A stretch of 64,000 nt of DNA, from positions 5,068,220 to 5,132,219 of the forward strand of contig NZ_CP007128.1 of the NCBI RefSeq assembly GCF_000522985.1, read 5' to 3'. Source of the DNA: Gemmatirosa kalamazoonensis (GTDB taxonomy: Bacteria; Gemmatimonadota; Gemmatimonadetes; Gemmatimonadales; Gemmatimonadaceae). Made by a program: the position numbers and the translations under genes. Of this stretch, positions 18,957 to 64,000 are shown in pieces. The number at the start of each line of letters is the position of its first letter. Position 1 is the stretch's first letter. The notes under the pieces were generated by a model. It ran no database searches. It saw only the letters and a list, made by a program, of their open reading frames with translations, and was not told the origin of the DNA.

Positions 18957-19535
18957 ATGATGGTGGCCATCCAGGACTCCCTTCCGCCGTACGACGTCCA
19001 GCAGACGCCGACCGAACCGACCGACGCGGCCCTCGCCGCCGGCGGCGACCGTCGCGCGTTCGAGCGGCTCTACCGGGCGCACGTCGGCCGCGTCTACGCG
19101 CTCTGTGCGCGCATGGCGGCCGACCGGGCGCTCGCCGAGGAGCTGACGCAGGACGTCTTCGTGCGGGTCTGGGAGAAGCTCGCCTCGTTCCGCGGCGAGA
19201 GCAGCTTCGGCACCTGGATCCACCGCGTGGCGGTGAACGTCGTCCTCAACCGCCTCCAGGCCGAGAAACGCGACCGGAAGCGGAGCGCGTCGAGTGACGA
19301 CGAGGACGACGGGATCGCGGCGCTTCCCGCGCGCCCCACGGCGCCGGGTGATCGGATGGACCTCGAGCGCGCGATCGCGGCGCTCCCCCCGGGTGCCCGG
19401 CGGGTGTTCGTGCTCCATGACGTGGAAGGCTTCCGACACGAAGAAATCGCCGAGCAGCTCGGCATCACCAGCGGTGGGAGCAAGGCGCAGCTGCACCGTG
19501 CGCGGCTCCTCCTTCGCGAGGCATTGAACGCATGA
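18957..19535 (+). CDS. ECF-type RNA polymerase sigma factor
   Basis: 192 residues. Region 2 is AFERLYRAHVGRVYALCARM...ELTQDVFVRVWEKL, and region 4 is LPPGARRVFVLHDVEGFRHE followed by EIAEQLGITSGGSKAQLHRA. It directs polymerase to envelope or stress promoters until its anti-sigma releases it. The stop overlaps the anti-sigma start (ATGA at 19532-19535), so the pair is coupled. The three DUF4097 genes behind it are the likely local regulon. A second ATG at 18960 is equally possible. Confidence 0.93.
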   Translation: MMVAIQDSLPPYDVQQTPTEPTDAALAAGGDRRAFERLYRAHVGRVYALCARMAADRALAEELTQDVFVRVWEKLASFRGESSFGTWIHRVAVNVVLNRLQAEKRDRKRSASSDDEDDGIAALPARPTAPGDRMDLERAIAALPPGARRVFVLHDVEGFRHEEIAEQLGITSGGSKAQLHRARLLLREALNA

Positions 19536-20479
19536 CCGACCGCATCCTGTCTTCCGAGCGCGGAGTCGCGGCGCCGGCCGATTGCGACCGGTTCGACACG
19601 CTGCTCCCCGATTACCTGGAGAGCGCCCTGCCGCCCGAGGCCCGCACGTGGGCCGAGGGACACGTGGCGGCGTGCGACCGGTGCCGGGCGCTCGCCGACG
19701 ATCTCGTGGCGATCACCCGGCAGGCGGCGGCCCTCCCGCCGCTGCAGCCGGCGCGCGACCTGTGGGCCGGCATCGCCGAACGCATCGAGGCGCCGGTGGT
19801 CCCGCTCGGCCGTACCGGCGAGCAGGCGCTTCCGACGCTCCGCGTGGAGCGCACGACGACCGCGCCGCGGCTCTCCGACCGCTTCTTCCAGTCGAAGCGG
19901 TGGCTGGCCGCGGCGGCGGGCGTGCTCGTCGCCGTCTCGGTGGGGTCGACGTACGTCGTGATGCGCGCCGCGGGCCGCGCGCCGTCGACGGTGGTGGCCA
20001 CGACGACACCCGCGCCGGTGACGACGCCGGTGACGACGCCGGTGACGACGCCGGTGACGCCGCCCGACCGCGACACGGCCGCCGTCCAGCCGACGCCGAC
20101 GAACGTCGCGCAGGCGTCGGACACGCGTTCGCCGGCCGCCGAGGAGGCGCGCCGTCGCGCGGAGGCGCGCGTGGCGGCCGAGTCGCGCCGCTTCGTCCGC
20201 TCGACCGACGGGGGCGATGCCTACGCGCCGGTCATGCAGACGTACGACAAGGAGATCGCCGCCCTGCGCACCGCGCTGCGGCAGCGCAAGGACCTCGACT
20301 CGAGCACCGTCGCGGTGCTGGAGAAGAATCTCCGCCTCATCGACGACGCGATCGCGCAGAGCCGCGCCGCGCTCGCGCGCGACCCGCACAGCCGCGTCGT
20401 CGGCGATCAGCTCACGCACGCGCTCGACCTGAAGGTCGAGCTGCTGCGCACCGCCGTGCTTCTTCCTTCGCGCTCCTGA
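19532..20479 (+). CDS. Zinc-finger anti-sigma factor with a periplasmic domain
   Basis: 315 residues. The N-terminus has an anti-sigma zinc finger (HVAACDRC, HxxxCxxC) for binding the ECF sigma factor. One membrane segment (LAAAAGVLVAVSVGSTYVVM) is near residue 135. A Thr/Pro linker built on 12-bp DNA repeats (VTTPVTTPVTTPVTPP) leads to a periplasmic helical domain (about 200-315, KEIAALRTALRQRKDLD...). The signal that releases sigma is unknown; regulated proteolysis is usual for this layout. Confidence 0.9.
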   Translation: MTDRILSSERGVAAPADCDRFDTLLPDYLESALPPEARTWAEGHVAACDRCRALADDLVAITRQAAALPPLQPARDLWAGIAERIEAPVVPLGRTGEQALPTLRVERTTTAPRLSDRFFQSKRWLAAAAGVLVAVSVGSTYVVMRAAGRAPSTVVATTTPAPVTTPVTTPVTTPVTPPDRDTAAVQPTPTNVAQASDTRSPAAEEARRRAEARVAAESRRFVRSTDGGDAYAPVMQTYDKEIAALRTALRQRKDLDSSTVAVLEKNLRLIDDAIAQSRAALARDPHSRVVGDQLTHALDLKVELLRTAVLLPSRS

Positions 20480-57339: not shown

Positions 57340-57637
57340 CGGAGAACTGCCTCTTTGGGTTGAACCGCAGAGGACGCGGAGGGCCGCAGAGAACATCGAT
57401 AGGGCGAGGGGATAGGCGAGTACCCTGGGGATCCAAGTGCGATCGAAAAGATCTCGAGATCCTCTTCATCGCCGTTGGATCCCCGGAGTACTCGCCTGGT
57501 ACCTCGAACCTGTCGACGACACCCTCAACTGCTATTGACCACAGAGGGCACGGAGGACACGGAGGAAACCCATTGACGTGGTTCTCCTCCGTGTCCTCCG
57601 TGCCCTCTGTGGTTCAATTCAAGAGGCAGTGCTCCGC
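57340..57637. repeat. Composite nested palindromic element
   Basis: Three levels are visible. Outer arms are 57340-57366 and about 57611-57637 (GCGGAGAACTGCCTCTT and inverted). A middle palindrome (57415-57443 with 57468-57496, about 25 of 29 matches) surrounds GATCTCGAGATC. A perfect 28-bp inverted repeat of CACGGAGGA-type units is at 57539-57566 and 57585-57612. The element fills the 329-bp convergent gap between the TrpF-like and GlsB genes. Confidence 0.85.
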
Positions 57638-57661
57638 GTCCACGCGCGAGACGGCCGGACC

Positions 57662-57919
57662 TCAGTAGACCCGTCGCCGCCTGAACAGGTGGATGATGAA
57701 CAGCAACACGACGGCGCCGATGAACGCGACGAGGATCGTCCCCGCGATGCCGCCGAGCGGGCTGGCGATGCCGAGCGCGCTGAAGATCCAGCCGCCGACG
57801 AACGCGCCGACGATGCCGATGATGATGTCGCCGATCAGGCCGTAGCCGGTGCCGCCCATGATCATCGAGGCGAGCACCCCGGCGACGAGGCCGACGAGGA
57901 GCCAGGTGAGAAGCGTCAT
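57662..57919 (-). CDS. GlsB/YeaQ/YmgE-family stress membrane protein
   Basis: 85 residues with three membrane segments, rich in Gly: LLVGLVAGVLASMIMGGTGY, GLIGDIIIGIVGAFVGGWIF and TILVAFIGAVVLLFIIHLF, ending RRRRVY. This is the transglycosylase-associated protein family of small stress-induced membrane proteins. GGAGG lies before ATG 57919. It stands alone. Confidence 0.92.
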   Translation of the reverse strand: MTLLTWLLVGLVAGVLASMIMGGTGYGLIGDIIIGIVGAFVGGWIFSALGIASPLGGIAGTILVAFIGAVVLLFIIHLFRRRRVY

Positions 57920-58114
57920 ATGGAGAGCCCTCCGGGTCGCATGTGTCGAAAGCGGTCGGGAGTCGGAAAGGCAACGGTCATGCCCGCCCCGCGCTCGGCG
58001 CGGCCCCTTCCCCGGGCGCGGTCCGTGCGCCAACGTTCTGCCGTCCCCCCCTGGCGCCAGACCGACGACCCGCGCCGGGGCTCGTTCCCGAACGACGCGG
58101 AGCGCCGACCCACC

Positions 58115-60526
58115 ATGACCCACGCAGACACCTCCGTCGCCGGTGACCGAACGTCGTTCGGCAGCTTCGATCTCGGACTCGAGGACGACACCCCGGCCCC
58201 GCCCGCCACGCCGGTCCGCGTCCGGACCCTCGGCGTCGTCGGCGCCGGCACCATGGGGAGCGGGATCGCCGCGCTCGCCGCGTCCGCCGGCATCCCCGTC
58301 GTGCTGCTCGACGTCGCCGCCCAGGGACCCGACCGCAGCGCCGTCGCGAAGAGCGCCGTCCAGAAGGGGCTGAAAGCGAAGCCCGCCCCGTTCATGGACA
58401 CCGACCGCGCGGCGCTCATCCGCACCGGCAACATCGACGACGACCTCGCGCTGCTCGCCGACTGCGACCTCGTCGTCGAGGCGATCATCGAGCAGCCGGC
58501 GCCGAAGCAGGCGCTGTTCGAGAAGCTCGAGGCGATCGTGAAGCCGACCGCCATCGTCGCGTCGAACACCTCGGGGATCCCGATGACGGTGCTGACGCAG
58601 GGACGCGGCGCGCGCTTCCGGCAGCGGTTCCTCGGCACGCACTTCTTCGCGCCGCCGCGCTACATGCACCTGCTCGAGATCATCCCGGGCCCGGAGACGG
58701 ACCAGTCGGTGATCGACGCGGTGCGCGCCTTCGGCGAGCGCGTGTTGGGCAAGGGGATCGTGCTGTGCAAGGACGTGCCGGGCTTTATCGCGAATCGGCT
58801 CGGCGTGTACGGCATGGTGCACACGATCCAGCTCATGGAGCGCTTCGGCCTCACGATCGACGAGGTGGATGCGCTCACCGGTCCCGTGCTCGGCCGCCCG
58901 AAGTCGGCGACGTTCCGCACCGCCGACCTGTCCGGTGTCGACGTCATCAAGCACGTGAGCGCGGGGCTCGCCGAGTCCACTGGCGAGGACTTCGCGCTGC
59001 CCGCGTGGGTGCACCGCATGGTCGACGAGAAGAAGCTCGGCGACAAGACCGGCGGTGGGTTCTACAAGAAGGTCGGCAAGGACATCCTCACGTTCGACCG
59101 CGAGACGAACGACTACGCGCCGCAGCAGAAGGTCGAGTCGCCGGAGCTGAAGGCGGCGGGCAAGACGCCGCTCGCGCAGCGCGGCGCGGCGCTGAAGGAG
59201 CTCCCGGGCAAGTACGGCGATTTCCTCCGCACGCTCCTCGTCGACAGCGCGCACTACACGCTGGAGCGATCGCCCGAGCTCGCGTTCGACGTGCCGAGCG
59301 TGGACCGCGCGATGGAGTGGGGCTACGGCCACGAGGCGGGCCCGTTCCGGCTCATGGACGCGCTGGGCCTCGACTGGCTGAAGCAGGAGTTCATCAAGGC
59401 CGGCTACTCGGTGCCCGCGCTGCTCACGCAGGCGCACGGGAGCTTCTATCGGCAGACGCCTAACGGCGAGGAGGTGCTCGGCTTCGACGGCCGATATGCG
59501 CCGGTGCCGGAGATCGCTGGCAACCTCCGCCTCGCCGCCGTCGCTGCGCGGCCGAACGCGATCCTCGAGCAGAACGACGGCGCGCGGCTGCTCGACCTCG
59601 GCGACGGCGTCGCGCTGCTCGAGTTCCGCGGCAAGGCGAACGCGATCTCGTCGAAGGTGCTCGACCTGCTGTGGACGTCGCTCGAGCGCATCGACCGCGA
59701 CGGCATGGCGGGCCTCGTGATCGGCAACGACGACCCGCGCACGTTCAGCGCCGGCGCCGACCTCGCCGAGTCGAGCGGCGCCGTGATCGCGGGCATGTGG
59801 GACGTCATCGACCAGGCGATCGCGCGCTTCCAGAACAGCACGCAGGCCATTCGCTACGCGCCGTTCCCCGTCGTCGTCGCGCCGGCCGGGCTCACGCTGG
59901 GCGGCGGATGCGAGTTCGCGCTGCACAGCGATCTCGTGCAGGCGCACGCGGAGCTGTACATGGGGCTCGTCGAGGCGGGCGTCGGGCTGCTGCCGGGCGG
60001 CGGCGGGTGCAAGGAGCTGCTGTTCCGCTTCATGGGCGACCTCGCGCCGTACGAGGAGGCCGACCCGTTCGAGGCCGTCAAGCGCGCGTTCAAGCTCATC
60101 GCCACCGCGCAAACGTCGACGAGCGCGCTCGAGGCCCGGAAGCTCGGCCTGCTGCGCGCGAGCGACCGCATCTCCATGAACCGCGACCATCAGATCGCCG
60201 ACGCGAAGCAGCGCGTGCTCGACCTCGCGCCCGGCTACGTGCCGCCGGCGCCGCGCACGGTGCGCGCGTTAGGCACCGAGGGGCTCGGCAATCTCCGCTA
60301 CGCGCTGTTCTCGTTCCGCGAGGGCGGCTACGCGTCGGAGCACGATGCCGTGATCGGGGAGCGCATCGCGCGCGTGCTGTGCGGCGGCGACGGTCCGCCC
60401 CGCGTGGTGAGCGAGCAGGACATCCTCGACCTCGAGCGCGAGGCGTTCCTGTCGCTGCTCGGCAACGAGAAGACGCAGGAGCGGATCATGTACACGCTCA
60501 AGACCGGGAAGCCCCTTCGCAATTGA
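58115..60526 (+). CDS. 3-hydroxyacyl-CoA dehydrogenase / enoyl-CoA hydratase, FadN-like
   Basis: 803 residues. The dehydrogenase part comes first (NAD loop LGVVGAGTMGSGIAALAAS; ASNTSGIP; FLGTHFFAPPRYMHLLEIIP), two C-terminal dehydrogenase domains follow, and the hydratase part is at the end (NDDPRTFSAGADLAES for oxyanion binding, GLTLGGGCEFALHSD). This order is that of FadN rather than FadB/FadJ. It performs the two middle steps of fatty-acid beta-oxidation. It is paired with the thiolase behind it; a foldback repeat lies between. Confidence 0.93.
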   Translation: MTHADTSVAGDRTSFGSFDLGLEDDTPAPPATPVRVRTLGVVGAGTMGSGIAALAASAGIPVVLLDVAAQGPDRSAVAKSAVQKGLKAKPAPFMDTDRAALIRTGNIDDDLALLADCDLVVEAIIEQPAPKQALFEKLEAIVKPTAIVASNTSGIPMTVLTQGRGARFRQRFLGTHFFAPPRYMHLLEIIPGPETDQSVIDAVRAFGERVLGKGIVLCKDVPGFIANRLGVYGMVHTIQLMERFGLTIDEVDALTGPVLGRPKSATFRTADLSGVDVIKHVSAGLAESTGEDFALPAWVHRMVDEKKLGDKTGGGFYKKVGKDILTFDRETNDYAPQQKVESPELKAAGKTPLAQRGAALKELPGKYGDFLRTLLVDSAHYTLERSPELAFDVPSVDRAMEWGYGHEAGPFRLMDALGLDWLKQEFIKAGYSVPALLTQAHGSFYRQTPNGEEVLGFDGRYAPVPEIAGNLRLAAVAARPNAILEQNDGARLLDLGDGVALLEFRGKANAISSKVLDLLWTSLERIDRDGMAGLVIGNDDPRTFSAGADLAESSGAVIAGMWDVIDQAIARFQNSTQAIRYAPFPVVVAPAGLTLGGGCEFALHSDLVQAHAELYMGLVEAGVGLLPGGGGCKELLFRFMGDLAPYEEADPFEAVKRAFKLIATAQTSTSALEARKLGLLRASDRISMNRDHQIADAKQRVLDLAPGYVPPAPRTVRALGTEGLGNLRYALFSFREGGYASEHDAVIGERIARVLCGGDGPPRVVSEQDILDLEREAFLSLLGNEKTQERIMYTLKTGKPLRN

Positions 60527-60530
60527 TATC

Positions 60531-60610
60531 GAGCGGGGAGCGTGGAGCGTGGAGCGGGGAGCGCGCATTCCTCCACGTTCCACGCTCCACACTCCCCGCT
60601 CCACGCTCAC
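60531..60610. repeat. Foldback repeat (7-bp units) between the beta-oxidation genes
   Basis: GAGCGGG/GAGCGTG units (60531-60563) face CTCCACG units (60571-60610). This is the same family as the copies inside the Eco57I-type gene and gspE, here intergenic. It ends just before the ribosome site TTGGAGGAAC of the thiolase gene. Confidence 0.9.
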
Positions 60611-60624
60611 TTGGAGGAACGACG

Positions 60625-61797
60625 ATGGACGCAGTGATCCTCTCCGCGGTGCGTACCGCGGTGGCGAAGGGCAAGGCCGATGGGGCGCTGGCAAAGGCGG
60701 GCGTGCTGCCGATCGACATCTCGGCGCTCGTCATGCGCGAGGCCGTCGGGCGCGCCGGCGTCGACGTCGCCGCGGTGGACGACGTGATCTGGGGGTGCGC
60801 GATGCCCGAGGCGTCGCAGGGGCTCAACGTGGCACGCAACGCCGCGCTCGCGGCCGGCCTCCCCGTCGACGCATCGGCGGCGACCATCAATCGCTTCTGC
60901 TCCTCCGGGCTGCAGAGCGTCGCGTCGGCCGCGCAGGCGGTGCTGAGCGGCATGCAGGACGTCGTGCTCGCCGGGGGCGTGGAGATGATGTCGCAGGTGC
61001 CGATGTCGGGCTACCACACGCGCCTCCACCCCGAGCTCACCGAGAGCTACATCGGCATGGGCTACACGGCGGAGCGCGTGGCCGAGCGCTACGGCGTGAG
61101 CCGCGAGGACCAGGATCGCTTCGCGTACGAGAGCCAGCAGAAGGCCGCGCGCGCGCTCGCCGCGAACGCGTTCGGCGACCAGATCGTGCCGGTGCCGGTG
61201 AAGCACGTCGCGTGGCGCGGCGCGGAGAAGACGGTCACGGAGAGCACGTTCGACCGCGACGAGCTGCCACGCACCGACACGACGCTGGACGGGCTCGCGA
61301 AGCTCAAGCCGGCGTTCAAGAACGGCGGCACCGTCACCGCCGGCAACGCGAGCCCGTACTCCGACGGCGCCGCGGCGCTCGTCGTGACGTCGCGCGCCAA
61401 GGCCGAGCAGCTCGGGGCCCGCCCGCTCGCGCGGCTCGTGACGTTCGCCGTGGCCGGCATCGACCCCGACGTCATGGGCGTGGGCCCGATCAACGCGATC
61501 CCGAAGGCGCTGAAGAAGGCCGGGATGACGCTCGCCGACATCGACCTCATCGAGTTCAACGAGGCGTTCGCCGCGCAGGCGGTGGCGGTCGCGCGGCACG
61601 TCGGCATGGACATGGACCGCGTGAACGTGAACGGCGGCGCGATCGCGCTCGGCCATCCGTTAGGCGCCACGGGATCGAAGCTCTCGGTGCAACTCATTCA
61701 CGAGCTGCGCAGGCGCGGCGGCGGCGTGGGGATGGTGACGATGTGCGTCGGCGGCGGCATGGGCGCCGCCGGGATCTACGAGGTGTATCCGGCCTGA
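60625..61797 (+). CDS. fadA: Thiolase, acetyl-CoA acyltransferase
   Basis: 390 residues. The nucleophile Cys is in NRFCSSGLQSV (about residue 92), the second Cys in MVTMCVGGGMGAAG, with NEAFAAQ and GGAIALGHPLGATGS. It releases acetyl-CoA from 3-ketoacyl-CoA as the last beta-oxidation step. GGAGG at 60612-60616 precedes ATG 60625. It is co-directional with the FadN-like gene. Confidence 0.93.
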   Translation: MDAVILSAVRTAVAKGKADGALAKAGVLPIDISALVMREAVGRAGVDVAAVDDVIWGCAMPEASQGLNVARNAALAAGLPVDASAATINRFCSSGLQSVASAAQAVLSGMQDVVLAGGVEMMSQVPMSGYHTRLHPELTESYIGMGYTAERVAERYGVSREDQDRFAYESQQKAARALAANAFGDQIVPVPVKHVAWRGAEKTVTESTFDRDELPRTDTTLDGLAKLKPAFKNGGTVTAGNASPYSDGAAALVVTSRAKAEQLGARPLARLVTFAVAGIDPDVMGVGPINAIPKALKKAGMTLADIDLIEFNEAFAAQAVAVARHVGMDMDRVNVNGGAIALGHPLGATGSKLSVQLIHELRRRGGGVGMVTMCVGGGMGAAGIYEVYPA

Positions 61798-61807
61798 CCG
61801 TCGGGAG

Positions 61808-62413
61808 CTACGGCCGCCGGCGACCGAGCGCGTCGGCGGCCCGCGTCACCGCCGCCTCCGGCGCCACGCCCGCGAGGATCTCCCGGTCCACCGCCGCGGT
61901 GAGCGCCACGTAGTCCGCCGCCGGCACGCCGCGGGCCGCGAGTCGACGCACCGCGCCCACCGCGACGTCGGGCGGCGCGCCGCGCGACACGAGGTCGGCC
62001 ACCGCGCCTAACGGCACCGCCAGCGGCTGCGCGCCGCCGTGCGCCGCGTGGGCCTCGGCGACCCGGCGCAGCGCGTCGCGGTCCACGCCGAGCCTGAGGG
62101 CCGCAGCGCCGGCGACGAGCGCATCGGCCGACGCGCCGGCGCCGAGCACCCCGCGCGCCGTCCCCAGCTCGCCGACGAGCTTGCGCACCGCGGCGACGAT
62201 CCGCGCGTCGTCGGCGCCCTTCAGCACGCCCTCCGCCGCCTTGTCGTAGAGCGGCGCGAGCGGGAGCCCGACGGCGCGCGCCGAGTCGCCGAGCGCCGCG
62301 AGCGCGGCGCGTGCCGCCGGCTGCACGCGCGCCGGCCACTCGCTCGACGGTGCGGGCTGCGCCGCGGCGGTGGAGCACGCGACCAGCAGCGCGAGGCCTA
62401 ACGCGCGCCTCAC
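61808..62413 (-). CDS. Secreted helical hypothetical protein, third gene of the sigma operon
   Basis: 201 residues with a signal peptide (ALGLALLVACSTAAAQ; the LLVACS segment could also be a lipobox). The rest is Ala-rich and helical (AALAALGDSARAVGLPLAPL, YDKAAEGVLKGADDARIVAA) with no known motif. The GTG start overlaps the anti-sigma stop (GTGA at 62410-62413), so it is made with it. Its role in the sigma system is unknown. Confidence 0.75.
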   Translation of the reverse strand: MRRALGLALLVACSTAAAQPAPSSEWPARVQPAARAALAALGDSARAVGLPLAPLYDKAAEGVLKGADDARIVAAVRKLVGELGTARGVLGAGASADALVAGAAALRLGVDRDALRRVAEAHAAHGGAQPLAVPLGAVADLVSRGAPPDVAVGAVRRLAARGVPAADYVALTAAVDREILAGVAPEAAVTRAADALGRRRP

Positions 62414-62967
62414 GACGACCCCCCGACGAGCACCACGGAGCTCGGCGCGCCGAAGTCGTCGTCGGCCGTGCGCGGCGCCGCCGGATCCGCGCGCAGCCCG
62501 CCGTCGACGACGAACCCGTAGACGTGGCGGCCCGGCGACAGCGGCACGCGCACCTCCCACGTCCGCCCATCGGGGCTCGCGCGCAGCGGCGTCGCGGCAG
62601 GGTCCCACCGGTTGAAGTCGCCCACGAGCGCCACCCGCGTCGCGCCGGGCGCGATCAGCGCGAAGCGCACCACCGTCGGTGCGGCGGCGGCGGCGGCCGG
62701 TACGCGCGCCACGGTCGGTGCCGCGTCGCGGCGCAGCGCCCACCATGCGGCGCCCGCGCCTAACGCCATGCATGCGAGCCCCGCCGCGACCGCCGCGAGC
62801 GGCGCCACGCTCCACCGGCGTGCTCGGCGCGGCGCCCGCGTCGCCACGATCTCGCGCAGCAGCGCCTCGCGCCACGCCGCGCGCACAGGCGGCGGCTCGC
62901 GCAGGGCGCGCACGTGCGCGCGCAGCGCCGCGGGCAGCTCGTCGCCGTCGTCGTGCTCAGTCCACAC
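62410..62967 (-). CDS. Putative membrane anti-sigma factor with glycogen-binding-like (CBM48/AMPK1) domain
   Basis: 185 residues. A cytoplasmic N-terminus (about 1-50) without a clear zinc motif, a membrane helix (VAAGLACMALGAGAAWWAL, about 55-78), and a periplasmic CBM48/AMPK1-like beta-sandwich (VRFALIAPGATRVALVGDFN, RWDP, WEVRVPLSPGRHVYGFVVDG). It overlaps the ECF sigma gene by 11 bases, which fits an anti-sigma role. A carbohydrate-binding-like domain as sensor part is unusual. Confidence 0.72.
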   Translation of the reverse strand: MWTEHDDGDELPAALRAHVRALREPPPVRAAWREALLREIVATRAPRRARRWSVAPLAAVAAGLACMALGAGAAWWALRRDAAPTVARVPAAAAAAPTVVRFALIAPGATRVALVGDFNRWDPAATPLRASPDGRTWEVRVPLSPGRHVYGFVVDGGLRADPAAPRTADDDFGAPSSVVLVGGSS

Positions 62968-63496
62968 CGGACACCTCCCGGAGCAACCGTTGCAGCCGCT
63001 CGCACGCCCGCTTCACGCGCATCTTCAGCGCCGACACGCCGACCCCCGTCGCTGCGGCCATCTCGTCGTAGCTCAGTTGCTCCACGTGCTTCAGCAGGAA
63101 CGCCTCGCGCTGCGCCGGCTCGAGCGCCTCGAGCGCGAGCTCCAGCTCGAGCCGCGCCTCGCTCGCGCCGGCGTCCGGCTCCACGAACGCCATGTCCATC
63201 GCCACCGCGTCGTGCACGAACCGGCGGCGTCGACGCCCGCGCCGCATCGCGGCGGTGCGGCAGCGGTTCACGAGGATCGCGAACAGCCACGCGCGGAACG
63301 TCTCGCGCGGCTCGTAGCGGTCGAGCGAACGATACGCGCGCACGAACGCCTCCTGTACCGCGTCCTCCGCGTCGGCCGTGTCGCCGAGCATCCGCGCGGC
63401 GAAGCGCAGGCACGCCGGGGAGTGTCGGTCCACCAGCGCGGTGAACGCGCGCGAGTCGCCGTCGAGCGCGCGGCGGACGAGCAGGTCGTCGGTCAT
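62957..63496 (-). CDS. ECF-type RNA polymerase sigma factor (second)
   Basis: About 179 residues from ATG 63496 (another start is at 63511). Region 2 is FTALVDRHSPACLRFAARML...EDAVQEAFVRAYRSL, and region 4 is LEPAQREAFLLKHVEQLSYD, EMAAATGVGVSALKMRVKRA. An unusual RRGRRRRR run lies between. It is followed by the overlapping anti-sigma gene and preceded by a CBM48-like gene in the same direction. Confidence 0.93.
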   Translation of the reverse strand: MTDDLLVRRALDGDSRAFTALVDRHSPACLRFAARMLGDTADAEDAVQEAFVRAYRSLDRYEPRETFRAWLFAILVNRCRTAAMRRGRRRRRFVHDAVAMDMAFVEPDAGASEARLELELALEALEPAQREAFLLKHVEQLSYDEMAAATGVGVSALKMRVKRACERLQRLLREVSGVD

Positions 63497-63545
63497 GGTC
63501 CGCGCGTGCAACCCCGCGTCGGCGCGCCCGCGTCACACGGGCCGT

Positions 63546-64000
63546 TCACGGCACCACCAGCACGCCGGCGGAGCCGTCGAAGTCGTCGGCGACGCGCGCG
63601 AGCCCGGGCGGCGCCGTCCATGCGTCGCCGTCGACGCGGATGCTGACGCGGTGCGTTCCCGGCGCGATGGGCAGCACGACCTCCCACACGTCGGCGCCGC
63701 CGCGCTGCATCGACACCGGCCGCCACTTCGTGAAGTCGCCCGACAGCTCCACGACGCGCGCCGCGGGCACGCGCACGCGCAGCGTGTACTGCCCGCGCTC
63801 CGTCGCCGGCGCGAGCGCGAACGCCGCCGCCGCGGGCCGCACCGACGGCGGGAGCGCCGGCCGCTGGAACAGGCCCGACGAGAGCCGCACGCCGAGCGAC
63901 GCGTAGCGCGCGCGTCCCACCGCCGGCGACGGCGCGCCGGAGAGCAGCGCCGCGAGATCCACCGCCGGCGGACGCGTGCCGGCCCCGAACGTGACCGCCG
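63546..64000 (-). CDS. C-terminal part of a protein with a glycogen-binding-like domain, runs off the right edge
   Basis: At least 151 residues are visible, the frame remaining open to the window end. The C-terminal 90 residues form a CBM48/AMPK1-like sandwich: YTLRVRVPAARVVELSGDFT, KWRPV, WEVVLPIAPGTHRVSIRVDG. It is closely related in pattern to the domain of the anti-sigma two genes later. It ends 50 bases before the sigma start, and all four genes point the same way. Confidence 0.72.
   Translation of the reverse strand, partial: AVTFGAGTRPPAVDLAALLSGAPSPAVGRARYASLGVRLSSGLFQRPALPPSVRPAAAAFALAPATERGQYTLRVRVPAARVVELSGDFTKWRPVSMQRGGADVWEVVLPIAPGTHRVSIRVDGDAWTAPPGLARVADDFDGSAGVLVVP

Follow-up and report, generated by a model that had tools for sequence, protein, structure and literature searches.

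A recurrent ECF sigma factor cassette of Gemmatimonadota with CBM48-type domains as candidate sensors of the cell envelope

Introduction

What signal would reach an ECF sigma factor whose gene lies between the genes of two proteins with CBM48-type domains? The question is raised by a locus of Gemmatirosa kalamazoonensis, at the end of the 64,000-nucleotide stretch of DNA analysed here, which we call the window. In human AMPK, a CBM48-type domain reads glycogen. A sequence-only reading of the locus had taken the membrane-bound member of the pair for an anti-sigma factor, and had proposed either that its domain senses alpha-glucan or that the two related domains work together as a protein switch, in both cases as a novel input for ECF systems. 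Here we report how far the locus, its relatives and the predicted structures of its proteins bear out these proposals.

Results

The locus encodes four proteins, two of them with CBM48-type domains

Gene calls and Pfam matches confirmed the proposed gene order. On the minus strand, a gene for an outer-membrane barrel with a C-terminal CBM48 is followed by those of the ECF sigma factor, of a single-pass membrane protein with a CBM48 and of a secreted helical protein (Table 1). The last three genes overlap, the sigma and membrane protein genes by 11 nt, and the membrane and helical protein genes by 4 nt. In the Pfam/profile scan the sigma factor matched Sigma70_r2 (residues 21-88, 1.7e-19), Sigma70_r4_2 (residues 116-168, 8.1e-14) and TIGR02937, and the membrane protein matched CBM_48 (3.7e-10; 40.4 bits, curated cut-off 22.4) and AMPK1_CBM (1.1e-9; 38.8 bits, curated cut-off 26.8). 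The helical protein matched no family in the Pfam scan. The upstream gene, which is cut by the window end, was read at full length from the genome (L007:7199-5766). It starts with ATG and encodes a signal peptide, a predicted barrel and the C-terminal CBM48, which matched CBM_48 above the cut-off (4e-5) and AMPK1_CBM below it (8.6e-5).

Table 1. Features of the cassette in the window
Feature	Position in the window	Strand	Basis or remark
Predicted outer-membrane beta-barrel protein with C-terminal CBM48, 477 aa, 3' part	63546..64000	-	gene runs past the window end to genome C2:5133198 (L007:7199)
CBM48 domain of the barrel protein, residues 386-476	63552..63824	-	Pfam, model, ligand-position alignment
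ECF sigma factor, 179 aa, regions 2 and 4 only	62957..63496	-	Pfam
Putative anti-sigma factor, single-pass membrane protein with periplasmic CBM48, 185 aa, GTG start	62410..62967	-	Pfam, model, fold search, profile comparison
Short cytoplasmic region, putative anti-sigma region, residues 1-56	62800..62967	-	model helices 13-23 and 30-44; profile comparison
Transmembrane helix, residues 57-79, N-in/C-out, arginine-rich N-terminal side	62731..62799	-	sequence, model
Periplasmic CBM48, residues 98-181, predicted AMPK-beta-like fold	62425..62676	-	Pfam, model, fold search
Secreted protein, helical by sequence, 201 aa, conserved cassette partner	61808..62413	-	no Pfam family; kept in phylum loci

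Genes of the 3-hydroxyacyl-CoA dehydrogenase type and of the thiolase type (window 57578-61797) converge on the cassette. We considered a link to beta-oxidation from these fadB/thiolase-type neighbours and rejected it: the pair also flanks a second locus of this genome (L008) and ten loci of related genomes, and since other lineages are flanked differently, the pair is more simply read as synteny inherited within one subgroup. The window also holds a second sigma/anti-sigma candidate, a sigma-region-2 match (19068-19271) with a neighbouring zf-HC2 match (19583-19687), both on the plus strand.

The cassette recurs within Gemmatimonadota

AMPK1_CBM was found in 187 of the 297 Gemmatimonadota genomes sampled. 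For the survey, 96 further loci were taken by CBM48 score, their neighbours not being a criterion, and the profile of the helical protein used on the neighbours was built on called genes. The membrane-CBM48 gene sat directly behind an ECF sigma gene in 83 of the 98 loci of the phylum, so what had been described from a single locus is a recurrent cassette. Among these 83 adjacent pairs, the commonest overlaps between the two genes were 4 nt (46 pairs) and 8 nt (18 pairs). Counting the whole neighbourhood, a sigma gene was present in 89 of the 98 loci, the helical protein in 89 and the barrel-CBM48 in 78; nearly all the sampled AMPK1_CBM loci of the phylum are this cassette. Three of the nine loci with no sigma gene are contig ends, and another (L055) has a sigma open reading frame in a separate survey. 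The barrel-CBM48 was not seen nearby in 20 loci, a few of them owing to a contig end; among those without it are L010 and roughly twelve more (L052, L059 and its relatives, L088). Since the flanking genes vary between lineages, the cassette itself is the conserved unit. Plasmid copies were looked for and none was found.

The genome of the window carries four pairs of a sigma gene and a membrane-CBM48 gene: the locus in the window, L008, L009 and L010. L008 and L009 are full sets, and L010 consists of the sigma factor and the membrane protein only. All four membrane-CBM48 genes lie directly behind a sigma gene, in a genome with 47 sigma-region-2 matches, which makes the pairing more than chance. 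Note that the fourth pair (L010 5202-6414) lies directly upstream of groES/groEL, and that its CBM48 is without the C-terminal ligand region.

Variants were seen in some lineages. In L037 and L043, no sigma or anti-sigma gene lies within 9 kb of the barrel-CBM48 and helical protein genes, which suggests that the pair can function as a unit. In one lineage there is a protein of about 100-138 aa, divergent from the cassette sigma, that matches sigma region 2 only (L053 2937-3278 on the minus strand, L056, L058, L062, L066, L070, L074 and L108); possibly it is a sigma decoy or a binding partner. Five genomes of related genera (G022, G137, G194, G255 and G271) have CBM48 matches with one in-frame TGA, which may be a match running past the stop or a real interruption.

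The membrane protein is a putative anti-sigma factor

The AlphaFold model of the membrane protein, made from an alignment of 74 sequences (mean pLDDT 82), has the cytoplasmic helices, the transmembrane helix and the beta-sandwich listed in Table 1. In the beta-sandwich block, pLDDT is 96-98 up to about residue 160 and 81-87 thereafter. The best PDB matches of this domain in Foldseek were the beta subunits of AMPK/SNF1 and their CBM domains, with TM-scores of up to 0.89-0.90 by target length. Thus, the predicted fold of the periplasmic domain is clearly that of an AMPK-beta-like CBM48.

None of the Pfam anti-sigma families matched the N-terminus of any of the 74 Gemmatimonadota members. The N-terminus of the longer members has an LDGE...AP..L..RVM layout, as in class I anti-sigma domains, and helix 30-44 of the window's protein aligns with their pre-membrane RVM helix. 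With hhalign, the long N-termini matched the zf-HC2 anti-sigma domains of the same phylum with 92% probability and a score of 39.4, compared to a maximum of 14.6 in 40 column-permuted profiles. The short N-termini, including that of the window, matched the long ones with 98% probability, and the zf-HC2 profiles directly with 4%. The best evidence comes from two homologues outside the phylum, L164 and L174, in which a zf-HC2 domain above the curated cut-off, a transmembrane helix and a CBM48 are found in one protein. Together with the fold, these comparisons support the proposal of an anti-sigma factor whose periplasmic part is a CBM48-type domain.

Alternatively, the membrane protein could be an effector whose gene is transcribed together with that of the sigma factor. 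The missing match to a recognised anti-sigma family in the Gemmatimonadota members would fit such an effector; the zf-HC2 homologues, the profile match and the overlapping genes of most loci argue against it, and we regard it as very improbable.

The ligand positions are kept in most of the family and lost in the window's copy

In AMPK-beta1 the contacts are W100, K126, W133, L146 and T148, and mutation of K126 is among those that reduce glycogen binding (PMC2642990). The membrane proteins of the cassette kept W100 in 74/74 cases and W133 in 65/74; the barrel domains kept them in 69/69 and 62/69. A further position, N150, which we take to be a glucan contact as well, was kept in 61/74 membrane domains (54/74 having W100, W133 and N150 together) and in only 10/69 barrel domains. 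K126 was found in none of the 74 membrane domains, where the residue is mostly A or M, and in none of the 69 barrel domains; T148 is seldom kept in the family.

In the membrane CBM48 of the window, W100 is the sole residue kept among these six. K126 is replaced by G, W133 by L and N150 by S, and the L146 position is F, as in most of the family. The L010 copy is likewise degenerate at the ligand positions. The barrel CBM48 of the window has the equivalents of W100 and W133, K126 and N150 being absent. When the frequent neighbours of the cassette were read by eye, no glucan-metabolism gene stood out.

With W133 and N150 lost and K126 absent, alpha-glucan sensing by the window's copy appears unlikely, so that this part of the sequence-only reading does not stand for the locus on which it was based; for the family, which mostly keeps the aromatic pair, it retains some ground. 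That reading had also named what would speak against it, a domain conserved without the contact Trp and Lys positions and without a partner domain. The window's copy is indeed without the contacts other than W100, and the family mostly keeps both the Trp pair and a partner domain.

The barrel CBM48 belongs to an old lineage of its own

The AlphaFold model of the barrel protein comprises a signal helix (residues 3-31), about 14 antiparallel strands (residues 36-367) and the CBM48. The barrel part matched the porins OmpG and CymA in Foldseek, a generic barrel match. Since the number of strands is even, the C-terminal CBM48 should be periplasmic.

In a FastTree phylogeny, all 72 barrel CBM48 domains fell in one clade together with a single membrane-type intruder (L176), with low support at the node. 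Identity between the membrane and barrel CBM48 was 29.6% within the same locus and 28.8% between loci. These separate lineages, with no surplus of own-locus identity, led us to reject a recent local duplication of the two domains. As judged from these comparisons, the second CBM48 forms an old lineage of its own; it is usually part of the barrel protein and elsewhere occurs as a free secreted domain. Its conservation as a partner of the first, in 78/98 loci and as a free secreted CBM48 in three loci of other phyla, agrees with what had been proposed from the window. That it is kept either fused to the barrel or free favours a putative two-domain envelope relay.

We calculated partial distance correlations given the other cassette parts. 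The value was 0.24 between the membrane and barrel CBM48 domains (0/200 permutations as high), 0.33 between the barrel CBM48 and the helical protein, 0.18 between the sigma factor and the anti-sigma N-terminus, and 0.03 between the membrane CBM48 and the barrel; these correlations are only suggestive, since the permutation null ignores phylogeny.

The core of the cassette is found outside the phylum

We scanned GTDB species genomes for the membrane-CBM48 family. The core, consisting of the sigma factor, the membrane CBM48 protein and the helical protein, was present on contigs labelled Thiobacillus, Proteobacteria, Clostridia, Syntrophobacteraceae, Spirochaeta, Deltaproteobacteria, Desantisbacteria and Atribacteria, and on one of an unassigned bacterium; these loci come from MAGs, and their taxon labels are therefore provisional. 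The sigma factors of the outside loci scored 118-153 bits, compared to about 200-283 in Gemmatimonadota, which shows that these are not stray contigs of that phylum. One further locus (L155, Eisenbacteria), with a sigma score of 220 bits, could be such a stray contig.

Three of the outside loci (L158, L161 and L171) have a gene for a free, secreted domain before the sigma gene, a CBM48 of about 120 aa. Thus the second CBM48, fused in Gemmatimonadota and free here, is kept either way. L158 and L161 also have a separate barrel-like protein after the helical gene. A common origin of these barrels with that of Gemmatimonadota was not detectable by homology, so that their part in the system is only suggestive.

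The scan also returned ParA-like ATPases (KGGCGKTT) whose C-terminal CBM48 has W100, W133 and a K or R at position 126 (L180 2595-3683, L181 1890-2972 and L193 1048-2139), in Omnitrophota and Latescibacterota MAGs. Such proteins could tie glycogen to partitioning.

A predicted promoter accompanies the cassette

From the sigma upstream regions we derived a bipartite motif, TGTGACS-N15/16-(T)CGTCT or AGTCT, with a threshold set at 5% by shuffling. It was found above threshold in 28/49 sigma upstream regions, a count inflated by these being the training set. Outside the training set, it was present in 15/21 helical genes with separate transcription and in 10/17 DUF4382 neighbours, as well as before membrane-CBM48 genes that lead their own operon; in other leader genes it occurred in 12/231, the 5% expected. 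DUF4382 genes (Pfam) adjoin the cassette in 17 loci (for example L111, L069, L093 and L095) in varying orientations; some of them lie opposite a divergent sigma gene across a common intergenic region, but the motif is directional. A strict form of the pattern gave 11 matches in 14 genomes, five of them at the cassette, compared to 0 for the reversed control, and three further strict matches lay 34-61 nt before small lipoprotein-like genes. We predict that the motif is an ECF-type promoter common to the cassette's own transcripts and the adjacent DUF4382 genes.

In the genome of the window the exact consensus had no match, and the sites found there with the PWM are degenerate. Over 4.4 kb at the window's locus there was a single, borderline site (12.4, threshold 12.36), which precedes the barrel gene at L007:7284-7254 and falls outside the window. 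Elsewhere, barrel genes that lead their own transcript, including those divergently placed, had the motif in 2/21 cases.

Discussion

Our results suggest that the cassette is probably an ECF sigma/anti-sigma switch, with CBM48-type domains through which it monitors the state of the envelope. At rest, the sigma factor would be held by the short cytoplasmic region of the membrane protein, as we infer from the class I anti-sigma-like N-terminus of its relatives, the operon overlap and the zf-HC2 homologues. The periplasmic CBM48 of the membrane protein would be the input, and the other parts of the sensor would be the second CBM48, on the periplasmic end of an outer-membrane barrel of about 14 strands, and the secreted helical protein. 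The trigger may be a carbohydrate-like ligand in the aromatic groove, or a contact gained or lost between the CBM48 domains or with the helical protein; the ligand-gated and contact-gated forms are inseparable by sequence alone. The change in the periplasm would then release the sigma factor, probably by regulated proteolysis, and the freed sigma factor would act on the TGTGACS-N15/16-CGTCT promoter of the cassette itself and on the promoters of helical protein, DUF4382 or lipoprotein genes, in a positive feedback. We also put forward, tentatively and with some doubt, a trans-envelope system in which the CBM48 of the porin-like barrel and that of the anti-sigma factor meet directly, over a shared glycan or via the helical protein, and so report the state of the outer membrane to the autoregulated ECF sigma factor.

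Other explanations give the CBM48 domains a narrower role. They could be E-set modules that form a pure protein switch through contacts with one another or with the helical protein, with no sugar involved. Two separate old lineages kept together, the second of them barrel-fused or free and secreted depending on the group, would be expected of such a switch, and the distance correlations of the barrel CBM48 with the membrane CBM48 and the helical protein point the same way, with the phylogenetic caveat given above. However, the positions of the aromatic groove are among the best conserved, although a pure scaffold would have no need of them, and the second domain is missing near L010 and about a dozen other loci; we find this explanation rather doubtful. 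Another explanation is a glucan sensor, in which the CBM48 of the anti-sigma factor (and of the barrel) would bind alpha-glucan or a similar oligosaccharide entering through the barrel, leading to sigma release. Both tryptophans, N150 in the membrane proteins and the oligosaccharide porins among the nearest solved folds of the barrel, even as generic matches, speak for it. K126 is nevertheless absent from both sets of domains and T148 is seldom kept, the window's copy has lost W133 and N150, and no glucan genes were noticed among the frequent neighbours, which makes a glucan sensor unlikely.

Degenerate copies such as those of the window and L010 show that a functional groove is dispensable in some paralogues, as would be expected if the CBM48 were an inert structural cap and signalling depended, as it does for RseA, on envelope stress and stalk proteolysis. 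Conservation of the domain across phyla, with a second CBM48 protein alongside in most loci, speaks against such a cap, and we consider it quite improbable. The autoregulated switch that reads the envelope through its CBM48-type domains is the explanation that we prefer.

Several known systems share parts of this design. Carbohydrate-binding modules are already carried by RsgI anti-sigma factors (PMC12203970) and by ECF52 proteins (PMC5826349). SigI/RsgI of Clostridium (Ruminiclostridium) thermocellum resembles the cassette in having a membrane anti-sigma factor beside the sigma gene, an extracytoplasmic CBM as sensor and an autoregulated operon (PMC4711584, PMC6056542, PMC12203970). Unlike the cassette, its sigma factor is not of the ECF type, its periplasmic domain is autocleaving, its modules (CBM3, CBM42 and others) serve plant polysaccharides, and it has no barrel or helical partner; the window's sigma factor is an ECF one, and no RsgI family was seen in the Pfam matches of the 74 membrane-CBM48 members. 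In ECF52 (SCO4117 of Streptomyces coelicolor), a zinc-finger anti-sigma region, a transmembrane helix and an extracytoplasmic CBM control an ECF sigma factor, and positive autoregulation has been proposed (PMC5826349, PMC8999054). There, however, all is in one polypeptide, whereas in the window, as in the called loci, the sigma factor and the CBM48 membrane protein each have their own gene; ECF52 is also confined to Actinobacteria, uses another CBM family (smart00776) and has no second CBM, barrel or helical protein.

The resemblance to class I anti-sigma factors with zf-HC2 (PMC7406223) lies in the N-terminal LDG...RVM layout, the transmembrane helix and the position beside an ECF sigma gene, and two distant homologues have zf-HC2 itself; the Gemmatimonadota members differ in being without the zinc ligands, and the window's copy is cut down to about two helices. 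With the glycogen-binding domain of the AMPK beta subunit (PF16561/CBM48; PMC2642990), most family members share the fold and two sugar-stacking tryptophans; they differ from it in the membrane anti-sigma context and in the contacts noted above, K126 never and T148 rarely being kept, and the window's copy also being without W133 and N150. Pfam scans of 74 membrane and 69 barrel members gave no FecR or TonB-receptor family. FecA, a TonB-dependent receptor of 22 strands, has its signalling domain at the N-terminus. The cassette is similar to FecA/FecR/FecI-type cell-surface signalling (reviewed in PMC9249621) in combining an outer-membrane barrel that has a periplasmic domain, an inner-membrane sigma regulator and an ECF sigma factor; it departs from it in its porin-like barrel of about 14 strands, its C-terminal CBM48 and the lack of a FecR domain.

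A literature search, which covered few subscription papers so that absence is not proof, found no CBM48 anti-sigma factor or sigma regulator. Since RsgI and ECF52 already bear CBMs, the claim of a novel ECF input holds for the cassette as a CBM48 variant and has to be given up for a new kind of input.

Gemmatimonadota are abundant in soil. Very few of them have been cultured, and to our knowledge almost nothing is known of their signalling. As a predicted promoter accompanies the cassette, its regulon and its signal are directly testable. With the cassette, ECF sigma factors would gain an AMPK-type domain among their inputs, and the outer membrane possibly a new connection to transcription.
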